The position numbers and the translations under genes are program-made. Under the pieces are notes generated by a model. That model had not been told where the DNA came from and ran no database searches. It saw nothing but the letters and a program-made list of their open reading frames with translations. Positions 14,831-63,280 of a stretch of 64,000 nt of DNA are shown here, piece by piece. Origin of the DNA: Candidatus Gastranaerophilales bacterium (GTDB lineage Bacteria; Cyanobacteriota; Vampirovibrionia; Gastranaerophilales; Gastranaerophilaceae); NCBI GenBank assembly GCA_947624645.1, contig CANQLG010000010.1, positions 1 to 64,000 on the forward strand. Direction: 5' to 3'. Every line of letters begins with the position of its first letter. The stretch's first letter is position 1.

Positions 14831-15292
14831 ATGATTCACCCGCTATCCGATGTTCAAAGTTCAAAAATTGGTGCAGATACAAATATATGGCAGTTTTGTG
14901 TTGTACTGCCTGATGCCGTTATCGGAAAAAATTGTAATATTTGCTCTCATTGTTTTATAGAAAATGATGTCATTATCGGCGATAATGTTACTATAAAATG
15001 CGGTGTTCAAATATGGGACGGCATAAGGATTGAAGATAATGTGTTTATCGGTCCTAATGTTACCTTTTGCAATGATAAATATCCGAAATCAAAAAATAAA
15101 AATTTTAAAATTGAATCAGTAATTATAAAACGTGGTGCAAGTATAGGTGCTAATTCCACAATATTACCAGGAGTTACAATAGGTGAAAATTCTCTTATTG
15201 CTGCCGGTTCAATAGTGACAAAAGATGTACCTCCAAATACTGTGTACAAGATACCAATTTCCCCCAATATACGCAAAAACTGTTCTAAATAA
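14831..15292 (+). CDS. Hexapeptide-repeat acyltransferase
   Basis: A 153-residue left-handed beta-helix transferase. The repeats run from [11 protein letters not shown] through [25 protein letters not shown] and [13 protein letters not shown] to [19 protein letters not shown]. The opening [21 protein letters not shown] matches sugar N-acetyltransferases of the WbpD/FdtC type that modify amino-sugars of surface polysaccharide. The substrate cannot be told. A TGAGG site precedes the ATG. It follows the helicase by 32 bp and converges on the SGNH gene, itself a possible polysaccharide-modifying enzyme. Confidence 0.85.
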
Positions 15293-15304
15293 TTTATACA
15301 TACT

Positions 15305-16175
15305 TTATATAGTATTTATTATATCTTTCAGTTTTTTAGTAAATTTTTCAGCACCACGTAAGTTTAGATGGTCAGTATCGTAAAAATCTTCATTTGTGTA
15401 TTCATTTGAATTGTAAAAACTTATTAATTTAACATTATTTTTATTGCATAACTGTATAATGCCGGAGAATAATTCATTATATTCGGGAATACATGATTTA
15501 TAATCTTGCGTAAAAGGCGGAATTACAACATATACATTAACATTATTTTTTTTGGCCAATTGTATTAGCTTTTCTGCATATATATGCCCTATTGTGCTTC
15601 TGACATTATTTTTATAATGTTTTTTAGCAACTCCCCCCCCCCATTAATAATTCGCTAGAAGCATTTTTAAACATTTCTTCATCATTACAAGGTTCGCCTC
15701 TATATGATTTATCTATATTTTTTCTTATATCAGATTCATAATTAAAAAATTTTATACTTCTATAAATACACTCTATTAAAAATGTAATATTCCTAACTAT
15801 ACTTTTTGAATATATATTATAAATGAAAATATAGGGAATACACAGAAATCTGTTAGAGGTTTTTTCAATCTCAAACCCGGGAGAAAATACGGAATAAAAG
15901 AGTATTATATTTTTTAAATTACTTAATTTACTCGCATATTTTTGGTAAAGTTTATATGAATAATATAAATCTTGTGATCTAATCGATAAATTAAATTCTG
16001 TTTCCTCTTTAGGTAAAAAGGCATAATGACCATGTGAACTGCCTAATACTAATGTCTGAATTTTGTTTATATTATTTTCTAATGATAAATGTTTTTTATA
16101 TATAGTATCAAAGTGATTTTTATAATAGTATTTATATCTTAATATATCAATTACTTTTTGAAAAAAATTAGTCAT
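15305..16175 (-). CDS. SGNH hydrolase-like gene interrupted at a ten-G tract
   Basis: Two minus-strand frames, 15624-16175 and 15305-15559 (the second extends in frame up to the tract), form one gene of about 290 codons. The upstream part has the SGNH block I motif VLGSSHGHYAF; the downstream part has the block V motif DTDHLNLRGAEKF. Neither is complete alone. At 15633-15642 the coding strand has ATG followed by ten G and AGTTGCTAA, so translation ends in GGGSC. With 8 or 11 G the reading would continue GVAKKHYKNNVRSTIG into the second frame. The gene is therefore off as sequenced. Phase variation is the favoured reading; a sequencing or assembly indel is the alternative. SGNH proteins of this kind often act on acyl groups of surface glycans. 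Confidence 0.8.
15633..15642 (-). repeat. Ten-base poly-G tract (poly-C on plus strand)
   Basis: Ten consecutive C on the plus strand, G on the coding strand, in a genome that is mostly A/T. It lies inside the SGNH gene and shifts the frame. Homopolymeric G tracts of this length are known slippage sites, for example in Campylobacter surface genes. Confidence 0.95.
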
Positions 16176-16204: not shown

Positions 16205-17563
16205 TTAGTCAATTTTTGAAAACAAGCACAATGTTTCCACGTGATAAGTATTTGGAAACATATCAAAAGGTTGGATATATTTAGGATAAAAACCTTTTGA
16301 TATTAATTGTTTCATATCTCTTGCCAATGTAGATACATTACAGCTTACATAAATAATGTATTGGGAGGTTAAATTAACAAGATAATTTATTGCATCCTCA
16401 CTTGAGCCTTTTCTTGGCGGATCAATTATTGAAATATTAAATTTTTCTTTATTATCAATTAATTTTTTAAAGTTTTCTGAAGCATCACCGTTTATAATTT
16501 CAATATTATTAATATTATTCAACCTAATATTTTCTTCAGCATCATTTGTTGCCGATTGAACCTCTTCTATACATACAACTTTTTTGGCGATAGAACTTAA
16601 CCATATCCCAAAACTTGATACACCTGAATATGCATCTAAGATTGCGGGGCTTTCAATATTTATTATTGATTTTACTTTGTCAAATATAAGTTTTGCACAA
16701 TAAGGATTTACCTGAAAGAAACTGTTTGCGCTAATTGTATACTTTATATTATCCAATTTTTCAATATAATAATCATTCCCCTTTATAATCTTTGTATTAT
16801 CAGACATTATTACATTAGTATTTTTAATATTATAATTTGTACAGACTCCAACAATAATTGGATATTTTGACATAATATAATCTGCAATTTGTTTAAGTTT
16901 ATCGTCTGTAACAGTTGAATTTATAACAAAAATAATTAATAATTGGCTTAAATCGGAAGAAATTCTATATATAATATGTCTTAAAAGTCCTTTTTTTGTT
17001 TTTTCATTATATGCGGAAATATTTAATTTTTGCGCAAATGATTTTATATCTTCATTAATCTCATTTATTATCTGCGGATGCAGTTTGCAGCATTTTATAT
17101 TTATTAATTCGTGTGAATTTTTTTTATAATAACCGGTTAAAATGCGTTTCGAAACCATTGTTTCCGAAACGGGAAGCTGCACTTTACATCTGTATTCATA
17201 TATTTTGGGGGATGCAATTGTATCTTCTATTTTAAAATCAATACCAGTTATATTTTTTATTGTTTCATAAACTATATTCTTTTTTTGCTTAAGTTGTTCA
17301 TTATAGTTAATATGCTGCCAATTACAGCTTCCGCATTTTGCGTGGAACGGGCACTCTGGTGTTTGCCTGTGAGGTGAGGGAGTTATAATTTCCTCTATTT
17401 CGGATATTGCGTATTTCTTATTAACTTTTTTTATTTTGACCTTAAGTATGTCTTCGGGGCAACCCCCATCAATAAATATCGGGAAATTATCAATTCTGGC
17501 TAAAGCCCTGCCTTCATTTATCATTTTTTCTATTTTTACTGTATATATTTCATCATTTTGCAT
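16205..17563 (-). CDS. rlmD: 23S rRNA uracil-5-methyltransferase (RlmD/RumA type)
   Basis: TrmA/RumA-family enzyme of 452 residues, transferring methyl from SAM to C5 of a uridine. An N-terminal TRAM domain (IEKMINEGRALARIDNFPIFI) is followed by the iron-sulphur Cys set CPFHAKCGSCNW and a later Cys in NIKCCKLHP. The C-terminal methyltransferase has ILDAYSGVSSFGIWL, the DPPRKGSS motif and YVSCNVSTLARDM, whose Cys is the catalytic nucleophile. The length and the cluster fit RlmD/RlmCD; the exact uridine is not fixed by sequence. Its start overlaps the end of the TPR-glycosyltransferase gene by 11 bp, so the two are probably co-transcribed. Confidence 0.9.
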   Translation of the reverse strand: MQNDEIYTVKIEKMINEGRALARIDNFPIFIDGGCPEDILKVKIKKVNKKYAISEIEEIITPSPHRQTPECPFHAKCGSCNWQHINYNEQLKQKKNIVYETIKNITGIDFKIEDTIASPKIYEYRCKVQLPVSETMVSKRILTGYYKKNSHELINIKCCKLHPQIINEINEDIKSFAQKLNISAYNEKTKKGLLRHIIYRISSDLSQLLIIFVINSTVTDDKLKQIADYIMSKYPIIVGVCTNYNIKNTNVIMSDNTKIIKGNDYYIEKLDNIKYTISANSFFQVNPYCAKLIFDKVKSIINIESPAILDAYSGVSSFGIWLSSIAKKVVCIEEVQSATNDAEENIRLNNINNIEIINGDASENFKKLIDNKEKFNISIIDPPRKGSSEDAINYLVNLTSQYIIYVSCNVSTLARDMKQLISKGFYPKYIQPFDMFPNTYHVETLCLFSKID

Positions 17564-19562
17564 TATTAATCAACTCATTTTGTATACTTTCGATGACGCT
17601 GTTTGGGTCATTATATTTTTTTTGTTTAAATATTTGTACACTATCATACCACGGAGTTTTTTTTGTATCGTTAAACCAACGCCATTCACTGTAATATGGC
17701 AGCATTAAATATGTTTTTATTCCTAATGCTCCTGCCAAATGAACAATTGCGCTATCTATTGTTATTAATATATCCATTTCCGTTAATAAATTGGCTGTAT
17801 CATTAAAATTCTTTATATAATTTTTCAGATTAGTAATTTCTTTTACTTCTATATCAGGTTGAAAAGAGTAAAATGAATAATTTTCAATATGGTATATATT
17901 TGATAATAATTCATAAGGAATTGACCTGTTATTTAATATTATGTCTGAGCCTTTCCAAAACAAACCTATTTTTTTATTTTTCGTATTTATTATATGATTA
18001 TTAACAGCCTTTAAATATCCCTTTGAAAAGGGAATATCATTAAAATCTGTTTTAAGTGCATATTGAACATCCATTAGCGGAATTAACACGTCATAATCTT
18101 TTATAATTTTGCCTTTATTTACTATATTTATGTCATTAAAGTTATTTTTCAATAATTGTATAAGTTCAGAGTCAGTCTGCAAAGTTACGCTTTTTGCTTT
18201 AGTTTTTAATAAATTTAAATATCTAGAATACATTATTGTATCTCCAAATCCGCAATTGGAATACAATAAAATATTTTTACCATCAAGTGTGTTGCCTTTT
18301 TCAAAAATTCTTTTATTATAAAATTTATACAGATTAGTATCAAGATTTCTTAAACGGTAAAGCTCCCAACCCGAATTAAAATTTTTTTCCGATAAATAAA
18401 TAGAACCCAGTGAAATTTTTGATTTAGTACCAGCAAGATTTGTTTTAATTAAATTTTCATAAATAGCTTTAGCTTCAGGGATTTTACCTAAATATTTTAA
18501 AGCAGCTGCTTTTCCGTTTAATAAAATGCTATCTTCGCCCGATACTTCAATTGCTTTTTCATAATATTCAAGTGCTTTTTCATATTCGCAAGTTTCCATA
18601 TATAATGAAGCCAGCATCCCAAATACTTCAGTAGAATCGGGATTTATTTCTATCATCAAATTTAATAGGTCTATACAATTTTTTGTTTTATTTTGTAGTT
18701 TTAATATATTTGCAGCGTTTATATAAGACTTTTTATATTTAGGATTTATCGTAATTGATGATTTATATGCCTCAATTGCATTATACTCACACTCGATGCG
18801 AGAGTATATAAATCCGATTATTTCTATAAATACAATCTTTTTTTCCTGATAATTTATTGTATGTAAAAGTGCCGATAAAAATTCAGATTCATTTTCTTTT
18901 CTATATTTTATGTATAAAGTACCTAAATTATAAAAATATAAGTAATTTCGATTATTTATTTGTGTTGCCTTAGCTAAATAGTCGATTGATTCAGGCAACA
19001 TTCCTTTATATTGATAATATTCAGAAAGCATTGAATATATTTCATCTTTATTATTGTTTATATTTAAACACTGTTTAGCATATATAATAGCATTATCATA
19101 GTCTTTTAATTCGTTATACATATTTGAAAGATTATAAGACGCATTATAATTTTTAGGGTTAAGCTTTAGTGCTTTTTTGTAGCATGAAATTACTTGGTCA
19201 AAATTACCCTGTTTTTTATATGCTATTGCCAAAGAATAATATAAATCATCAGATTCTCCCAAGGATATTGCAGTATTATACATAGTAACAGATTTATCAA
19301 TATCTTCATTAAGAAAATAAGCTTTTGCCAAATTAGTTGCAATATAAGGGGTTTGTTTTATAAGAAATGCCTTGGAAATATAATATATTGCTTTTTCGTA
19401 ATTTTTTTTCGCAACATACAACATCCCAAGCAGATTTAAGATATTTGAATCATCACAATTTAATGATAACAACAGTAAATACAGTTCTTCAGCTTTATCT
19501 AAATCATTATTGGAATGATAATAAAAAGCTCTATCCGATAATTCTTTATAACGAACATTCAT
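17553..19562 (-). CDS. TPR protein with C-terminal GT9-like domain
   Basis: A 669-residue protein. Residues 1 to about 390 are tandem TPR helices with repeats like YSLAIAYKKQGNFDQVISCYKKALKLNP. The rest resembles glycosyltransferase family 9 (heptosyltransferase-like): YSNCGFGDTIMYSRYL, GLFWKGSD, and ITIDSAIVHLAGALGIKTYLMLP, followed by EWRWFNDTKKTPWYDSVQIF. The last block is typical of TPR-GT proteins annotated widely in Gram-negatives. Substrate and acceptor are unknown. It lies between the glycogen synthase (upstream, 30 bp away) and rlmD (overlapping), a probable three-gene unit. Confidence 0.85.
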   Translation of the reverse strand: MNVRYKELSDRAFYYHSNNDLDKAEELYLLLLSLNCDDSNILNLLGMLYVAKKNYEKAIYYISKAFLIKQTPYIATNLAKAYFLNEDIDKSVTMYNTAISLGESDDLYYSLAIAYKKQGNFDQVISCYKKALKLNPKNYNASYNLSNMYNELKDYDNAIIYAKQCLNINNNKDEIYSMLSEYYQYKGMLPESIDYLAKATQINNRNYLYFYNLGTLYIKYRKENESEFLSALLHTINYQEKKIVFIEIIGFIYSRIECEYNAIEAYKSSITINPKYKKSYINAANILKLQNKTKNCIDLLNLMIEINPDSTEVFGMLASLYMETCEYEKALEYYEKAIEVSGEDSILLNGKAAALKYLGKIPEAKAIYENLIKTNLAGTKSKISLGSIYLSEKNFNSGWELYRLRNLDTNLYKFYNKRIFEKGNTLDGKNILLYSNCGFGDTIMYSRYLNLLKTKAKSVTLQTDSELIQLLKNNFNDINIVNKGKIIKDYDVLIPLMDVQYALKTDFNDIPFSKGYLKAVNNHIINTKNKKIGLFWKGSDIILNNRSIPYELLSNIYHIENYSFYSFQPDIEVKEITNLKNYIKNFNDTANLLTEMDILITIDSAIVHLAGALGIKTYLMLPYYSEWRWFNDTKKTPWYDSVQIFKQKKYNDPNSVIESIQNELINNAK

Positions 19563-39126: not shown

Positions 39127-41436
39127 ATGCAATATCTGAAACGAATAAACTTCATTAATATCATTATTTCGACAATATTGGCAATAATATTCAGCTATAT
39201 AATATATAATTTTTTATATCCAAATATTCATTACAAAAATTTATCAGATTTTTATATAGGTACAACAATTTATTTAGACCATAATAAATATTTAGACATT
39301 TATATCTATTTAATTTATTTATTATTCTTTTTTGTTTTTACTTTTGCTTTCAGTTTTATTAAATTCAAAAATAATGACAACAAAGTCATAATAAGTAACA
39401 ATGAAACAAAAAATATCAAATTTAGAGAAATAATTACTAAAATCAGAAATATTACAGTTAAAAATCAATATTTAGCATTATTGGGATATATATTTTTATA
39501 TCCTTTTAACGGACAAATTTACCCGAGATTAATCGGCTTGATATTATTAATAATACTTTGCGGTTTAGCGGATTCATATAAGAATAGAAACCAAAACAGA
39601 TTTTCTCCGTTTGCCGTTGCAGGTATATTATACTTTATATTTTTTAACGCCTATCAGCTAAATATATATTTAATTGATGATCATCATATGGGCGAGACCT
39701 TTGCTGCATTTTTTATGCATGATTTGTTTAATTTAAAATATTACAAAGATATAATGCTTGTTCACGGATATATAGATGTTATACCCGCATTTTTAGGCAA
39801 ATTTATATTTAACACAAATACATTAAACGGTTATTTATTGGGTGATGTTTTATTTAGAAATCTGAATTTAATTATTCTGCTGATAACAGGCTGCTGTATA
39901 TTTTCATCGGAATTATATTATATTGTTCCGATAACATTTATAAATATGCCGTCTCCCGCTTCTGTTTTTTGTATAGCTTATATTATTCTGCTTAAATTTC
40001 TTGAAAAGCCTTGGGGAATACTTATTTATACAATAATTGGTTTTATATTCAGTCTTATTTGGACTACAATGGGCACATTTTGGCTTCTGGCTGCTTTACC
40101 TTTATTTATTTTTAATATTTTTAAGCATAAAAATAAAAAATATATTTGTTTGGCTTTAATATCTTTGTTAATTCTCATATATTTATTTAAAGAACCGCTA
40201 TTTTATTACTTTTTAGAAGCTAAAGAATATACAAGAGCCTATTTGTTTTCTTTTGGAAATAATTTTCCTGAAATAATAAAAATTATACCGATTTTGTTTT
40301 TTATTAAAGCTTTTGTTCTTTTTATTACTCCTGTTTTTATAATTGAATTGGGTAAAGAACTTTATAATCAAAATAAATCAACCGAAAAAATATTATTTTT
40401 AGTATTTTTTACTATTTTGGCAATTGTTTCATTAAGTTATACCCTTGGAAGAATTGACGGAAATTTATTATACAGGCTGCAATATATCTCAATTCCTTAT
40501 TTATTAATTGTATTACCGTACTACTTATATATACAATCAACGGAAAAAATAAAAAAAATAACAAAAATAGTTTTTATTTCAATATTAATATTCACCTCAG
40601 CACAAAATATATTTAAATTATCAAACAAGATAAAATTTTGCGGGATTAAGTATGATAAAGCCCAAGAGTTAAGAATTGCATCAATAAGAGAATACCTGAA
40701 AAAATTTCCTGATAATACTTCTTTTTTGGATTTTACAAACAGGGGCATGCACTATTTTTATTTAAAGAAAAAATGCCCCGTAAAATATACCTCTTTTTAT
40801 AATTCAATAACAACAAATCAATCAATAAATTCTCTTAAAAGATTAAAAAACAATCCGCCTGATATAATCCTTATTAAATCATTAAACAATATATATGATA
40901 ATGTATTTCCGTCTTTAAGAGTAAATCCGGAATACAGATATATGCTCTTGAGCGGACAATATAAATATGAAGAATATAAAGAAAACGGATTTTTAATAAA
41001 AACAGACAATAACAAATATTCTAATAAAGATTTATCTGAATTTGATTTTATATTTTCAAACAATAATCTTGGCTTTTTACCAGAAGTATGGGCTAATTCA
41101 ATTAATACACTCCCCATTACAAAAATTAAGCCCGAGTATTATTTTTATCAGGTTCAAAATAAACTTATAATTAAATTTATTAATCCGCAAAAAGGCTCAG
41201 ATATTGATTTATTGTATATTGCAAATAAACTTCAAAACACATCAAAATACATAATAAGTATAAATGATTCGGATTCAGATATGATATGCTATTCAAAATC
41301 AGGAAAATTGCTTTTACCCTTTGACAATTTCCCATCTTGGATGCTAAATAATAATATAAAAACAATAACAATAGAATCACTTAATTTTATTTCGCCCGAA
41401 ATAGAATTTTATAATAAAACGGAAAGAGATAAATGA
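39127..41436 (+). CDS. Large multi-pass membrane protein, GT-C-like
   Basis: A 769-residue protein with about a dozen hydrophobic helices in residues 10-470 and a soluble C-terminal third. The loop LIDDHHMGETFAAFFMHD sits where GT-C glycosyltransferases have their acidic catalytic residues, which is the only hint of function. It overlaps the SGNH gene by four bases (ATGA), so the two are coupled; a transferase paired with an acyl-handling enzyme would fit surface-glycan assembly. No closer family assignment is possible by eye. Confidence 0.65.
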   Translation: MQYLKRINFINIIISTILAIIFSYIIYNFLYPNIHYKNLSDFYIGTTIYLDHNKYLDIYIYLIYLLFFFVFTFAFSFIKFKNNDNKVIISNNETKNIKFREIITKIRNITVKNQYLALLGYIFLYPFNGQIYPRLIGLILLIILCGLADSYKNRNQNRFSPFAVAGILYFIFFNAYQLNIYLIDDHHMGETFAAFFMHDLFNLKYYKDIMLVHGYIDVIPAFLGKFIFNTNTLNGYLLGDVLFRNLNLIILLITGCCIFSSELYYIVPITFINMPSPASVFCIAYIILLKFLEKPWGILIYTIIGFIFSLIWTTMGTFWLLAALPLFIFNIFKHKNKKYICLALISLLILIYLFKEPLFYYFLEAKEYTRAYLFSFGNNFPEIIKIIPILFFIKAFVLFITPVFIIELGKELYNQNKSTEKILFLVFFTILAIVSLSYTLGRIDGNLLYRLQYISIPYLLIVLPYYLYIQSTEKIKKITKIVFISILIFTSAQNIFKLSNKIKFCGIKYDKAQELRIASIREYLKKFPDNTSFLDFTNRGMHYFYLKKKCPVKYTSFYNSITTNQSINSLKRLKNNPPDIILIKSLNNIYDNVFPSLRVNPEYRYMLLSGQYKYEEYKENGFLIKTDNNKYSNKDLSEFDFIFSNNNLGFLPEVWANSINTLPITKIKPEYYFYQVQNKLIIKFINPQKGSDIDLLYIANKLQNTSKYIISINDSDSDMICYSKSGKLLLPFDNFPSWMLNNNIKTITIESLNFISPEIEFYNKTERDK

Positions 41437-42368
41437 AACAGATACTAAAATTTATAATAATAAATACCGTTATATTGGCTATAATAATATTAATACTGGA
41501 AGCAGGGATATGGTTTTTTGAAAATAATCAGCTTGTATTATCAAAAGATGAATATGTGCTTAAAAACGGTTTTTTCCCTTTTCATAAAGGAATAACGAAT
41601 TTCACGTTTGATGAAAAAATATTTAGAGATAACCCCATCGGCGCAGAATACAAAAACAAAAAGCCGATAGTAATATTCGGATGCTCATACGCATACGGTT
41701 TTTTATTGGATAGAGAACAAACATTTTCATATAAGTTATCAAAACTAACTCACAGAACTATATATAATAGAGCCTATCCTGCATGGGGATCTGCACACAT
41801 GCTCTATCAAACTAGAGATGAAAATTTATACAAAGAAATTCCTGAGCCCGAATATGTTATATTTCTTTCCATGCATGACCATTTCAGACGTTTATACGTT
41901 ATGACATTTATGTCAGGTGATATATTGTGTGAAAATTTTTACTTAAGATATAAAGAGAAAAACGGTGAGCTTATTCAAATACAAAACAAAAATAAATTCT
42001 TGAATTTGATTAAACGCTTATATTTAGTTCAAAAAATTCATCATTACTATGTAAATAACAAAATACTGAAATACGAGGATTATACAAATGCATATGATTT
42101 TTATGCCAAACAAGTCATAGAAAGTAAAAATAATATGCAAAAACACTGGAAAAATACAAAATTTATATATATACAATATGATTGGATAAAAGATAGAGAA
42201 ATTTTATTTAATAAACTTGAAGATGCAGGTTACACAATAATATATCTGCCGGAATTAACAAATAAAGATTTATATTCAAAAGAGTATGTATTGGCAAAAG
42301 ATTATCATCCGAATGAAAATGCTTGGAACCTGATAACACCTTTAGTCGCAAAAGAACTTAAATTATAA
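41433..42368 (+). CDS. Membrane-anchored SGNH hydrolase-like protein
   Basis: A 311-residue protein with one N-terminal anchor helix (IIINTVILAIIILILEAG) and a periplasmic SGNH domain. FGCSYAYGFLLDREQTFSYKL has the Ser of block I. NRAYPAWGSAHML stands for block II with the Gly, and KDYHPNENAWNLI for the terminal Asp/His pair. It is clearly related to the protein at 50869-51873, which shares GCSY-x-x-G, the Y/WN-x-G-x-x-x-A region and HPx-x-x-AW. It is translationally coupled to the GT-C-like gene. Likely acts on O-acyl groups of glycans; substrate unknown. Confidence 0.75.
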   Translation: MKQILKFIIINTVILAIIILILEAGIWFFENNQLVLSKDEYVLKNGFFPFHKGITNFTFDEKIFRDNPIGAEYKNKKPIVIFGCSYAYGFLLDREQTFSYKLSKLTHRTIYNRAYPAWGSAHMLYQTRDENLYKEIPEPEYVIFLSMHDHFRRLYVMTFMSGDILCENFYLRYKEKNGELIQIQNKNKFLNLIKRLYLVQKIHHYYVNNKILKYEDYTNAYDFYAKQVIESKNNMQKHWKNTKFIYIQYDWIKDREILFNKLEDAGYTIIYLPELTNKDLYSKEYVLAKDYHPNENAWNLITPLVAKELKL

Positions 42369-50868: not shown

Positions 50869-51873
50869 TTATAAATTGAACTTTTTTACTAATGCCGGAA
50901 CAATTGTTTCCCATGCTAAGCTTGAAGGATGCGGGTGATTTTCATCAAGCTCTGAGCTTATTCTGTCTTCAGGTAAATTCATTTTTCGTCCGATTAATTC
51001 TTCAGTTGTAACTACATAAAAATTGTCTTTTCCAATACTTTTTAATTTGTCTTTAAATTCATCAGAATACATGATATCAAAAGATTTTTCAATCGGATTT
51101 ATTTCCATCCCATCATGATATGTAGACGTAATTCCTTCACATAAATCGTAATTAATATCAGAATAAATTAAAAATATAAACTTACTGTCCGGAAACAATT
51201 TATCAGTTTGCCGTTTTATATCATTAATTATCATATAAAACAGATTCAATCTTTTTGATAAATCTATATCATCATTAATATAATCAGCCAATTCTTTGTT
51301 TCTAAAATAACTAATTGTATAAAAATTATCAAAGAAAGAAGATTTTTGAAAATCAAAATAATTGTATTTTCTATACAAATTGAAAAAAGAATTTACATTC
51401 AATCTGTATTGAGCCAGATGATCAAACATATACGTATAAATAATATATTCGGGCTTTGTATCTAACAAGGGTTTAAATTCTTCATTTTTAAGCAAAAGAA
51501 GTGAAGGGAAAGCTGATTGTCCGATAATTCCCCAATTATATACTTTTCTTTGAGTGTTTTTGGCTAAGATGCCGGCAAAATTATTATGTGCATCCAAAAG
51601 ATGACCAAAAGTATATGAACAACCCAAAAGCAATATAGGTTTTTTATTTTCATCATAATGGGAGAGAGTAGTTAATGATTCCTCATATCTCGCAGGTGGA
51701 TAGTATCCATAGTTAGATGCAATAACATTTTCTATTTTATATAAATAAGGCAAGAAAAATTTTTTAAACCCTGAAGACTTATAAAACTTAATATATAATA
51801 CAAATTCTAATATAAAAAATAATACAATTATAAGTAAAATATTTATTAAAATAATTTTAAAAAAATTTTTCAT
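50869..51873 (-). CDS. Membrane-anchored SGNH hydrolase-like protein
   Basis: A 334-residue paralogue of the protein at 41433-42368. The N-terminal anchor (IILINILLIIVLFFILEFVLYI) precedes LLGCSYTFGHLLDAHNNFAGIL with the block I Ser, YNWGIIGQSAFPSLLLL with the Gly, and DENHPHPSSLAWETI with the Asp/His end. It stands alone, convergent with ftsQ with no gap between the stops. The presence of two similar anchored proteins and a third, interrupted one suggests several glycan-modifying specificities. Confidence 0.75.
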   Translation of the reverse strand: MKNFFKIILINILLIIVLFFILEFVLYIKFYKSSGFKKFFLPYLYKIENVIASNYGYYPPARYEESLTTLSHYDENKKPILLLGCSYTFGHLLDAHNNFAGILAKNTQRKVYNWGIIGQSAFPSLLLLKNEEFKPLLDTKPEYIIYTYMFDHLAQYRLNVNSFFNLYRKYNYFDFQKSSFFDNFYTISYFRNKELADYINDDIDLSKRLNLFYMIINDIKRQTDKLFPDSKFIFLIYSDINYDLCEGITSTYHDGMEINPIEKSFDIMYSDEFKDKLKSIGKDNFYVVTTEELIGRKMNLPEDRISSELDENHPHPSSLAWETIVPALVKKFNL

Positions 51874-60314: not shown

Positions 60315-61298
60315 TTGCGATATAAAAGCTGTTATTGGATAGAATCAGGAATAAATTTTGATATAGATTCATACAAAGTATGTTGTCTGTATAGCGCAAA
60401 AGGCGGGGGAAATACTATTGTAAAAGATAATTATAAAGGTGAACCCGTTGATTGGGATAATTTTTTTGAATTTAAAAAAATGATGAAGGATATGCATAAA
60501 CGAGGTGAAACATATCCAAAATGTGAGGGTTGTATATTTCTAGAAGAACAAGACTGGCCTGATGATCATAGTAAAATAAGCATGATAAATCTTGATTACT
60601 GGACAAAATGCAATTCCAAATGTTCATATTGTCATACAATGCTAGACAAGGATAAATATAATAAATTTAAAAATTATAATTTTCTGCCAATTCTTAAGGA
60701 CATGATAAAAAAAGATATATTGAGACCAAACGGACACGTCAGTTTTGGCGGAGGAGAAGTTACCCTTTTAAAAGAATTTGATAAACTCCTAAATATCTTT
60801 ATGGACTTTGGGTTTCCTTTAACAAGAATACATTCATCTTGTATTAAATATTCAAAAGCGATAGAAAAAGGATTAAAAAACGGATGTGTAGATTTGATTG
60901 TATCTGTTGATGCAGGTTCAAAACAAATGCACGAAAAAGTAAAACAAGTAAAATCGTTTGATAAAGTATGGAAAAATTTAAAACGATATGCTGCTAATCA
61001 AAAAGAGCCCTATGCCGTAAAAAGTAAATATATTGTAGTCCCGGGGTTAAATGATAAAAAAGAGGAATTGGAACTTTGGCTGAAAAAATCCAAGGAAAAC
61101 GGAGTTAATTGTGTTTTTCATGAAATTGAATCAAAATGGTTTTATGCACGAAGAGAAAGTGTTCCTGATGAAATAATAGAATTATTTAATTGGACAAAGG
61201 AGCTTGCAGAGTCTATGGGGCTGAAATATGAACTATATGAACGAGCAGAACATATGATGACATACAGAAAAGAACAAGAGGCAAAACAAAATGCGTGA
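60315..61298 (+). CDS. Radical SAM protein with N-terminal Cys cluster, copy 1
   Basis: A 327-residue radical SAM enzyme starting at TTG 60315 (AGAGGGA before it). The SAM-cluster Cys are 99, 103 and 106 (WTKCNSKCSYCH); VSFGGGEVT is the SAM-binding GGE. In front of the barrel are Cys6, Cys23/24 and CEGC at 70-73, enough for an auxiliary [4Fe-4S] site resembling a SPASM cluster moved to the N-terminus. SCYWIESGINF and KGGG are shared with copy 2. Substrate unknown. Overlaps copy 2 by eight bases. Confidence 0.9.
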   Translation: MRYKSCYWIESGINFDIDSYKVCCLYSAKGGGNTIVKDNYKGEPVDWDNFFEFKKMMKDMHKRGETYPKCEGCIFLEEQDWPDDHSKISMINLDYWTKCNSKCSYCHTMLDKDKYNKFKNYNFLPILKDMIKKDILRPNGHVSFGGGEVTLLKEFDKLLNIFMDFGFPLTRIHSSCIKYSKAIEKGLKNGCVDLIVSVDAGSKQMHEKVKQVKSFDKVWKNLKRYAANQKEPYAVKSKYIVVPGLNDKKEELELWLKKSKENGVNCVFHEIESKWFYARRESVPDEIIELFNWTKELAESMGLKYELYERAEHMMTYRKEQEAKQNA

Positions 61299-62274
61299 AT
61301 ATACAAGCTGTCATTGGATACAACACGGATTAAGTTTTGAAAATGACCATATAGAAATGTGCTGTTTATGCTGTCATAAAGGCGGCGGCAGATTATATAT
61401 AAAAGATAAATATAACGGCAAAGGGCTTAAATGGGATGAACTCTTTAAATTAAAAGATAAATTCATCGAAGATAACCGAAACGGCATTATAGACCCAAGA
61501 TGTGAAGGCTGCTTTAATCTTGTACACAGGGGCTGGGATGATGATGAAAAATATATAAATTACATACATTTTAATCATTGGACACACTGCAACAGCGATT
61601 GTATATACTGCTATACAAAATGGGATAAAAAAGCGTTCAATTCAAGACCTCATTATAAAGTAATGCCGATGTTAAAGGAGTTATTTAAAAAGAAGTTATT
61701 CCGCCCGGGTGGCGAGGTTACATTTGCAGGCGGAGAGCCTACTATTCTTAATGAATTTGATGATATAGTTAATTGTCTTCTAAAAAACGGTGTAGAAAGA
61801 ATAACCGTTCACAGTTCGGGGATAAAATATTCAAAGGCAATAGAAAAAGGGATAAAAGAACAAAAATTATCCGTATGTTTATCAGCAGATTGCGGTTCTC
61901 GTGATACATATAAAGCTGTAAAACGAGTGGATAAATTTGAAAAATTTTGGCAAAATGTTGAAAAATATGCTAATTCGCAACCTGATGATAATAAATTACT
62001 TGTTGAAACTAAATTTATAATCATACCGGGAGTTAATGATAATAAAGAAGAAATTGAAAAATGGTTAAGCCTGAATCTTGCCTGCGGAATAAAATCTATC
62101 GTGGTTGATATTGAAAATGATTACTGTAAAGAGCTCAGACAGGAAAATAAAGAAAAGCCCGCCCATCTTGTTGAGCTTTGTAATTATATAGTAAAAAGGG
62201 CAAAAGAACTTGATTTTAATCTTGTTGATTATAATAATTTCAGGTATTTAATAACCGAATATAATCTGGCATGA
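61291..62274 (+). CDS. Radical SAM protein with N-terminal Cys cluster, copy 2
   Basis: A 327-residue paralogue of copy 1. SAM-cluster Cys 100, 104 and 107 (WTHCNSDCIYCYTKWD), VTFAGGEPTIL as SAM motif. N-terminal Cys 7, 24, 25, 27, 28, 71 and 74; MCCLCCHKGGG has two extra Cys compared with copy 1. The middle KAIEKGIKEQKLSVCLSADCGS matches copy 1's VDLIVSVDAGS. ATG start inside the end of copy 1. The C-terminus has no SPASM Cys, which confirms that the auxiliary Cys are N-terminal. Likely functions as a multi-enzyme set with the flanking copies. Confidence 0.9.
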   Translation: MREYTSCHWIQHGLSFENDHIEMCCLCCHKGGGRLYIKDKYNGKGLKWDELFKLKDKFIEDNRNGIIDPRCEGCFNLVHRGWDDDEKYINYIHFNHWTHCNSDCIYCYTKWDKKAFNSRPHYKVMPMLKELFKKKLFRPGGEVTFAGGEPTILNEFDDIVNCLLKNGVERITVHSSGIKYSKAIEKGIKEQKLSVCLSADCGSRDTYKAVKRVDKFEKFWQNVEKYANSQPDDNKLLVETKFIIIPGVNDNKEEIEKWLSLNLACGIKSIVVDIENDYCKELRQENKEKPAHLVELCNYIVKRAKELDFNLVDYNNFRYLITEYNLA

Positions 62275-62284
62275 GGGAAAAAAC

Positions 62285-63280
62285 GTGGAAGGATTTGAAA
62301 GCTGCAGTTACATAGAACACGGGATGGTATTAGACCATTGCAATCGCATACGCTCTTGCAACAATTTTAATCCTCGATACGGAGGCAGACCTGTTATTTA
62401 TGAAAATTACCACGGAGAAAAAATTAACTGGAAAGAATTTTTTGAAATAAAAAGAAAAGAACGCCAAAAATACAGAGAAAATTCTTGTCCTGAATTATGT
62501 AAGGACTGCGTTAACACTGCTTTTAAAAATTGGGATGATGAAGACTACATTGATTATCTTTTATTAACTCCCTGGGTACCTTGCAACTCAAATTGTATAT
62601 ATTGTCAGGCTCCAAGAGATAAAGAAGTACTTGATAATACAAAAGTTTATAAAGTATTGCCCCTGATAAAAGATATGATTAAAAATAATATTTTAAAGAA
62701 AAGCGGTACAATAGATTTTGCAGGCGGGGAACCTACAATATACAAAGAATTTGAAGCACTATTACATGAATTTATAAAAAATGATTTTCAAAAAATAATT
62801 ATACATACCAATGCAATTAAAAAGAGTAATGCAATAATAAAAGGGCTGAAAAAGGGGGTCGTAAGAGTGCTTGTATCAATAGATGCAGGTTCTAAAGACA
62901 TACATAAAAAAGTAAAACAAGTTGATTCTTATGATAAAGTTTGGAATAATCTTAAAGAGTATGCAAAAAACCAGCCTGAAAATGCAGATTGGGTAAAAGC
63001 TAAATATATTATAGTACCCAATCTTAATGATAAAGAAGAAGAAATTAATATTTGGCTTGAAAAATGTAAAGATATTAATATAAAAAGCGTTGTTTTAAAC
63101 TTAGATTTTAATTGGATAATGAAAAATGTAGATAACGATTTAATTCCGATATATAATCTTATGAAATACACTCAAAATAGAGCCTATGAACTTGGTATGA
63201 ATTGTGAATTATACGGGCAAATATTTCAGGTTAAATGCGAAGTCGAACACTCACGAGAAGAAAATATAGCAGGATTTTAA
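62285..63280 (+). CDS. Radical SAM protein with N-terminal Cys cluster, copy 3
   Basis: A 331-residue paralogue starting at GTG 62285. SAM-cluster Cys 100, 104 and 107 (WVPCNSNCIYCQAPRD); IDFAGGEPTIY. N-terminal Cys are 7, 25 and CKDC at 72-75, plus Cys68 and Cys19; the CC pair of the other copies is replaced by SCNN, and KGGG by YGGR. It is therefore the most divergent, possibly with a different substrate. It lies 10 bp after copy 2 and ends the operon at a strong terminator. Confidence 0.9.
   Translation: MEGFESCSYIEHGMVLDHCNRIRSCNNFNPRYGGRPVIYENYHGEKINWKEFFEIKRKERQKYRENSCPELCKDCVNTAFKNWDDEDYIDYLLLTPWVPCNSNCIYCQAPRDKEVLDNTKVYKVLPLIKDMIKNNILKKSGTIDFAGGEPTIYKEFEALLHEFIKNDFQKIIIHTNAIKKSNAIIKGLKKGVVRVLVSIDAGSKDIHKKVKQVDSYDKVWNNLKEYAKNQPENADWVKAKYIIVPNLNDKEEEINIWLEKCKDINIKSVVLNLDFNWIMKNVDNDLIPIYNLMKYTQNRAYELGMNCELYGQIFQVKCEVEHSREENIAGF

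Follow-up and report, generated by a model that had tools for sequence, protein, structure and literature searches.

Is the SGNH-type gene at positions 15305-16175 broken, or is it a working gene that was assembled in its off state? The question arises at a run of ten guanines, where the gene changes frame within the window (i.e. the whole 64-kb stretch of DNA that was analysed). The source organism, a member of Candidatus Gastranaerophilales, is one of the non-photosynthetic Cyanobacteria; the related named records are MAGs of the same group.

We regard it as highly probable that the locus is a contingency (phase-variable) gene, one of about 52 G-tract loci spread over the genome. The tract very probably belongs to a large group of on/off switches by which the cells of one population come to differ at their surface; switching itself was not seen. 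The first-pass annotation had already read the gene as probably phase-variable, and this reading is supported by a tract in the congener G378, by an apparently constrained part beyond the tract, by sister copies and by the genome-wide tract set.

One gene in two reading frames

The features of the locus are as follows.

15305..16175, minus strand: SGNH-type (DUF1574/DltD-like) gene, about 288 codons across two frames, the parts of which tile homologues of 277-332 aa
15645..16175, minus strand: N part, 177 codons that precede the tract and include GSSH (the block I motif)
15305..15640, minus strand: C part, read in the other frame and containing DTDHLN (catalytic D-x-x-H motif)
15633..15642, minus strand (ten C on the plus strand): G10 homopolymer tract at the frame break, the proposed slippage site

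The N frame starts with an ATG at 16175, contains LVLGSSHGHY and ends at a stop two codons past the tract, yielding 183 aa. The C frame is open from the tract down to 15305 and contains YDTDHLNLRG; its 111 codons are uninterrupted and its catalytic residues are conserved. Both the ten-G run on the coding strand, which had been placed exactly at the break of the gene, and the two frames were confirmed. The accompanying frame arithmetic, by which 8 or 11 G restores a single frame with both catalytic motifs, is correct.

Separate searches with the N part and with the C part led to identical loci in further genera of the family. The homologues there are uninterrupted frames (277-332 aa) in which no G run exceeds five, and such intact, tract-free homologues were found in eight species. 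In the alignment, the two parts cover the full-length homologues end to end with nothing missing. Because they tile intact homologues without a gap, 15305-16175 is one gene. GSSH and DTDH are conserved in this alignment, and G49, D272 and H275 are invariant among nine full-length homologues.

The C part exceeded the Pfam gathering cut-offs of DUF1574 (3e-7, 30.6 bits; cut-off 29.1) and DltD (2e-5, 24.4 bits; cut-off 22.7). The N part had no Pfam match but aligned to the N half of full-length homologues, and the SGNH identity proposed earlier is thereby upheld. The intact paralogue on contig 15 fell slightly below the DUF1574 cut-off (28.1 bits). We did not assign the gene as DltD, because it missed the NCBIfam LTA_DltD cut-off (28.3 versus 150 bits). 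The gene shares with DltD/DUF1574 SGNH proteins both Pfam scores (C part) and the GSSH and DxxH motifs, but it lacks a recognisable membrane anchor, and the window contains no dlt operon. Neither a signal peptide nor a membrane helix was recognisable in the product. When solved structures were searched by profile, the matches were weak and confined to an acetyltransferase (6vjp, E 0.0045). Family and neighbours alone suggest that the enzyme may act on a surface glycan (acetylation); its substrate is unknown.

Two more SGNH-like genes in the window (41433-42368 and 50869-51873) have N-terminal membrane helices and no G tract. They are resembled by a tract-bearing gene elsewhere (L064:2245-3279).

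Genomic setting

The neighbours of the SGNH gene are the following.

14831..15292, plus strand: hexapeptide-repeat (NeuD/PglB/VioB-like) sugar acetyltransferase, convergent with the SGNH gene
16205..17563, minus strand: 23S rRNA (uracil) methyltransferase gene (RumA/RlmD-like), directly upstream with a 29-bp gap, at the islet edge
17553..19562, minus strand: TPR/GT9-like protein, first gene of the same run, overlapping rumA

We infer that the SGNH gene is probably the last gene of a same-strand run (TPR/GT9-like, rumA, SGNH), and rumA and the SGNH gene are probably co-transcribed. In one relative (L105), uvrD and rumA are directly adjacent, and thus the interval from uvrD to rlmD/rumA is occupied here by an accessory islet made up of the SGNH and acetyltransferase genes. 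In another relative (L104), the interval between rumA and uvrD holds other genes, with a G9 tract of their own. The hexapeptide acetyltransferase also adjoins the SGNH gene in G378 and in the congener G351. The G351 orthologue of the acetyltransferase (L189:1762-2250) carries its own G9 tract, and a glycosyltransferase (GT) gene upstream of it a G10. Elsewhere in the window, three tandem radical SAM-like paralogues of about 330 aa (CxxxCxYC type) occupy 60315-63280.

G tracts in the window and throughout the genome

The G10 at 15633-15642 is the sole G/C run longer than five in the window, where a first-order Markov model predicts 0.003 runs of exactly ten. It also passes the length of eight G that was taken as sufficient for hypermutability. 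The claim that such a run is unlikely by chance thus holds for the window, yet the genome contains about 50 further tracts. In total, the window's genome (G000; 2.14 Mb in 71 contigs) contains 52 runs of at least eight G, versus approximately 3.6 expected from the window's composition, with five runs of 8, 30 of 9, 12 of 10, three of 11 and one each of 12 and 13. In contrast, there are only 29 runs of six or seven G versus approximately 103 expected. Hence, the long tracts are a separate class rather than the tail of a distribution.

Two long frames meet out of phase at 9 of the 52 tracts, compared with 2.2% of random positions (p=2e-6). The congener G077 gave out-of-frame splits at 6 of 33 tracts, compared with 1.6% of random positions (p=1e-5). 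Seven of the 16 split-type tracts scored in G000 are in frame.

Among the Pfam assignments of the genes with tracts are GT2, GT6, a GT56-like fragment, Acyl_transf_3, four AlgX-like paralogues, DUF1574, TupA-like ATP-grasp, methyltransferase, radical SAM, Chlam_PMP repeats and N_methyl pilin, and the set also includes large frames without a Pfam match. Grouped by kind, it spans glycosyltransferase, acyltransferase, SGNH-enzyme, autotransporter-like and pilin genes. The GT6 gene (L091:1850-2607) is split at a G10, and its halves match consecutive parts of the profile. Glycosyltransferase family 6 is the family of the ABO blood-group enzymes. Two more GT-type tracts lie on the same 4-kb contig. 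In some cases (L066, L076), the tract falls within the final codons of the gene.

Tracts in promoters

A different arrangement was found upstream of genes. A cassette of G8 or longer followed by TAAAA, three to five bases and TATAAT occurs ten times in G000, seven times in G077 and not once in the other 144 family genomes; reversed controls never yielded it. The loci are L061, L074, L083, L085, L086, L087 and L090 in the window's own genome and L149, L152, L155 and L156 in G077. The ten G000 tracts lie between -35- and -10-like boxes, with TAAAA-N4-TATAAT on the 3' side and in most cases TTGC-like bases on the 5' side. The genes that directly follow the cassette tracts encode Kelch-repeat proteins and other small proteins of secreted or membrane type.

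In promoters of Neisseria and Bordetella, a homopolymer lies between the -35 and -10 boxes and its length sets promoter strength. The homopolymer spacer of the cassette resembles this arrangement by sequence alone, whereas the cassette sequence and the genes differ. We infer, without transcription data, that tract length sets the spacing of the promoter boxes.

Proposed switch, sister copies and an orthologue

We propose that slipped-strand mispairing at the G tract would add or remove one G during replication. In one of the three length classes (ON), this would give a single SGNH enzyme of about 288 aa with both catalytic motifs. In the other two (OFF), which include the assembled G10, translation would stop just past the tract and leave a 183-aa piece without the catalytic Asp and His. 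The G-tract set as a whole would act by frame switching within genes or by changed promoter spacing, and its targets would mostly be genes for surface glycans, adhesin-like proteins, lipoproteins and pilins. Slipped-strand mispairing as the source is inferred from the class of tract; reversibility within the population and the role in surface-glycan acetylation are inferred as well.

Without reads there is no direct proof of length heterogeneity, and G lengths in a short-read metagenome assembly may be off by one. We nevertheless consider it quite improbable that an assembly or sequencing error hides a tract that is in frame in all cells and a gene that is intact. Homopolymers of 9-10 G are indeed error-prone in short reads (PMC9187656). 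Moreover, at three contig ends a tract is no more than 10 bp away (0.07 expected), which may reflect either sequencing drop-out or length variation. A length error, however, cannot create a tract, cannot conserve it at the same site in the assembly of another species, and cannot yield 52 tracts concentrated in surface-type genes. It also fails to account for sister copies that differ by one G inside single assemblies.

Contig 15 carries two such copies as tandem paralogues: parA has a G9 and is in frame (whole, 293 aa), while parB has a G8 and is split exactly at the tract. Their tracts lie about 45-50 residues upstream of the window's tract position, and tracts have thus arisen more than once in the SGNH family. 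The closest in-genome paralogue of the window gene is intact across its own tract. Orthologues of the contig 15 paralogues were also found in G378 (G9, out of frame) and in G351 (G11, in frame at the tract, frameshifted elsewhere). In G077, two paralogues with 94% identity across 2.4 kb have tracts one base apart in length: the C9 copy is intact (978 aa) and the C10 copy split. After the tract, the OFF copies (parB and the G077 paralogue) have a dN/dS of 0.21. Tract lengths therefore differ between paralogues (G9/G8; C9/C10) and are equal (G10) in both orthologues of the window gene; no conspecific strains were compared. At L062:7900-14900, four tandem AlgX/DHHW-like SGNH paralogues have a C tract at about nucleotide 130-400 of the coding strand, with one copy in frame at the tract and three out.

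The orthologue came from a profile search for relatives of the SGNH gene in all 41 genomes of the genus. The family was present in three of them (the window's own and two others), and the first five congeners sampled had no orthologue of the window gene. The G378 orthologue has 48% amino acid identity in each part and adjoins uvrD and the same hexapeptide acetyltransferase. Its tract, too, is a G10, agrees with the window tract in alignment position and in phase, and likewise splits the gene; with G10 in both, both orthologues are OFF as assembled. The tract was retained between the two while the residues beside it diverged. Beyond the tract, differences are distributed over the three codon positions as 46/30/59 (chi-square p=0.009), and the NG86 dN/dS is 0.27, a rough value at a divergence near saturation. 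Judged from these alignments, the part beyond the tract looks constrained; such codon-structured differences are as expected if the C part were sometimes translated.

These comparisons leave only a very slight chance that one tract indel inactivated the SGNH gene for good and that it is now drifting as a frameshifted pseudogene. The gene does lie in an accessory islet and is missing from most congeners, and the G351 copy is frameshifted outside its tract. Against this, the C part is still open with its catalytic residues, its differences from G378 are codon-structured though both assembled copies are out of frame, and the OFF copies parB and G077 have the low after-tract dN/dS given above. Phase variation, it had been stated in advance, would be refuted if all relatives had a permanently broken gene whose downstream part had decayed; this is not the case, because G378 keeps the G10 in place and the part beyond it is open and apparently constrained. 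Finally, programmed recoding, in which ribosomal or transcriptional slippage on a fixed G10 makes some full-length enzyme, is scarcely credible: it would fit the G10 and shared phase relation of both orthologues, but sister tracts are in frame without recoding (parA and the seven in-frame tracts scored in G000), tract lengths range from 8 to 13 with no fixed phase, and recoding is impossible for promoter-located tracts.

Distribution across the family

Of the 146 sampled family genomes, 126 contained one or more runs of at least nine G. Counts ranged from 0 to 128, and reached 176 in a second sample; within the genus alone, they ranged from 0 to 119 per genome. A pattern of ribosome-binding site (RBS), ATG, short leader and G8 or longer was found in 54 of the 146 genomes, whereas any match in the reversed controls occurred in six; the pattern counts are inflated, because a single tract can match several times. 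The congener G123 has at least 12 prepilin genes (FTLAEVLITL) in which an RBS and ATG are followed by about eight codons and then G9-G11, with 1 of the 12 in frame (L157-L174, e.g. L172:8316-9101). They are possibly a phase-variable pilin array.

Outside the family, no G9+ run was found in one genome from a second family of the order, and one to four were found in five genomes of another family of the class. The tracts were rejected as a marker of this family only, since G9+ runs are numerous in several photosynthetic families as well. Some photosynthetic cyanobacterial families (e.g. G344, G237, G306) have 70-80 runs of at least nine G per genome. Loss of mismatch repair was likewise rejected as a cause: mutL, the only repair gene considered, is intact (584 aa) in the window's genome, and hence no repair defect explains hypermutability, a point that weighs against the phase-variable reading. 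Nor were the 28 genomes without a full mutL hit tract-rich (median two tracts).

On balance, we favour the view that the homopolymer phasome of Gastranaerophilaceae is among the largest known in any bacterial family, many species having from dozens to over 150 G tracts in a genome of about 2 Mb. This phasome would comprise frame switches in the middle of genes, a repeated promoter cassette whose spacer is the tract, and tracts near the start of genes in prepilin arrays. The glycans, adhesins and pilins at the surface would thus be combined differently in each cell.

Comparison with known phase-variable systems

Phase variation by poly-G tracts is textbook knowledge in Campylobacter, Helicobacter and Neisseria. 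For the present lineage, the first-pass annotation knew of no description of such a switch; our literature search, which did not extend to preprints and subscription journals, likewise found nothing that joins Gastranaerophilales or Melainabacteria with phase variation of their own genes. Hence, the mechanism is already known, whereas lineage and scale appear to be new. To our knowledge, few or no gut isolates exist of these non-photosynthetic gut relatives of cyanobacteria. A direct test is possible all the same, as gut metagenomes that already exist allow the lengths of the tracts to be counted. If our reading is true at a comparable or larger scale, contingency loci would be a general answer of gut colonisers rather than a trait of pathogens. 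It would also be a warning that many 'pseudogenes' and contig breaks in Gastranaerophilales MAGs may be phase states.

The closest parallel is in Campylobacter, where 1944 tracts of at least seven G/C were recorded in 77 genomes with PhasomeIt (PMC6321876). The length distributions resemble each other, with 9 (53%) and 10 (26%) in Campylobacter (PMC6321876) and 9 (58%) and 10 (23%) in G000. Both have many G tracts with the mode at 9 and then 10, mostly in surface-modification genes, with OFF states in the form of split open reading frames, in A/T-rich genomes of gut bacteria. The two belong to unrelated phyla, however, and the present genome adds the promoter cassette, its congener G123 the start-proximal tracts in many prepilin genes. 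Furthermore, switching has been demonstrated in Campylobacter, whereas here the evidence is that of sequence, with up to 176 tracts of at least nine G per genome.

Helicobacter canadensis is reported to have homopolymeric tracts that are translational and transcriptional candidates, and switching of C-terminal sequences (PMC2823697). Both candidate types are shared, and the last-codon tracts at L066 and L076 are like C-terminal switching, while the lineage and the genes are others. In Bifidobacterium breve, a G-tract switch controls sortase-dependent pili at two loci, with lengths determined by maximum-depth sequencing (PMC9187656). This system, too, is that of a gut commensal in which an intragenic G tract splits a surface gene and tract length sets ON or OFF, but it comprises two loci, compared with dozens in the present genome.
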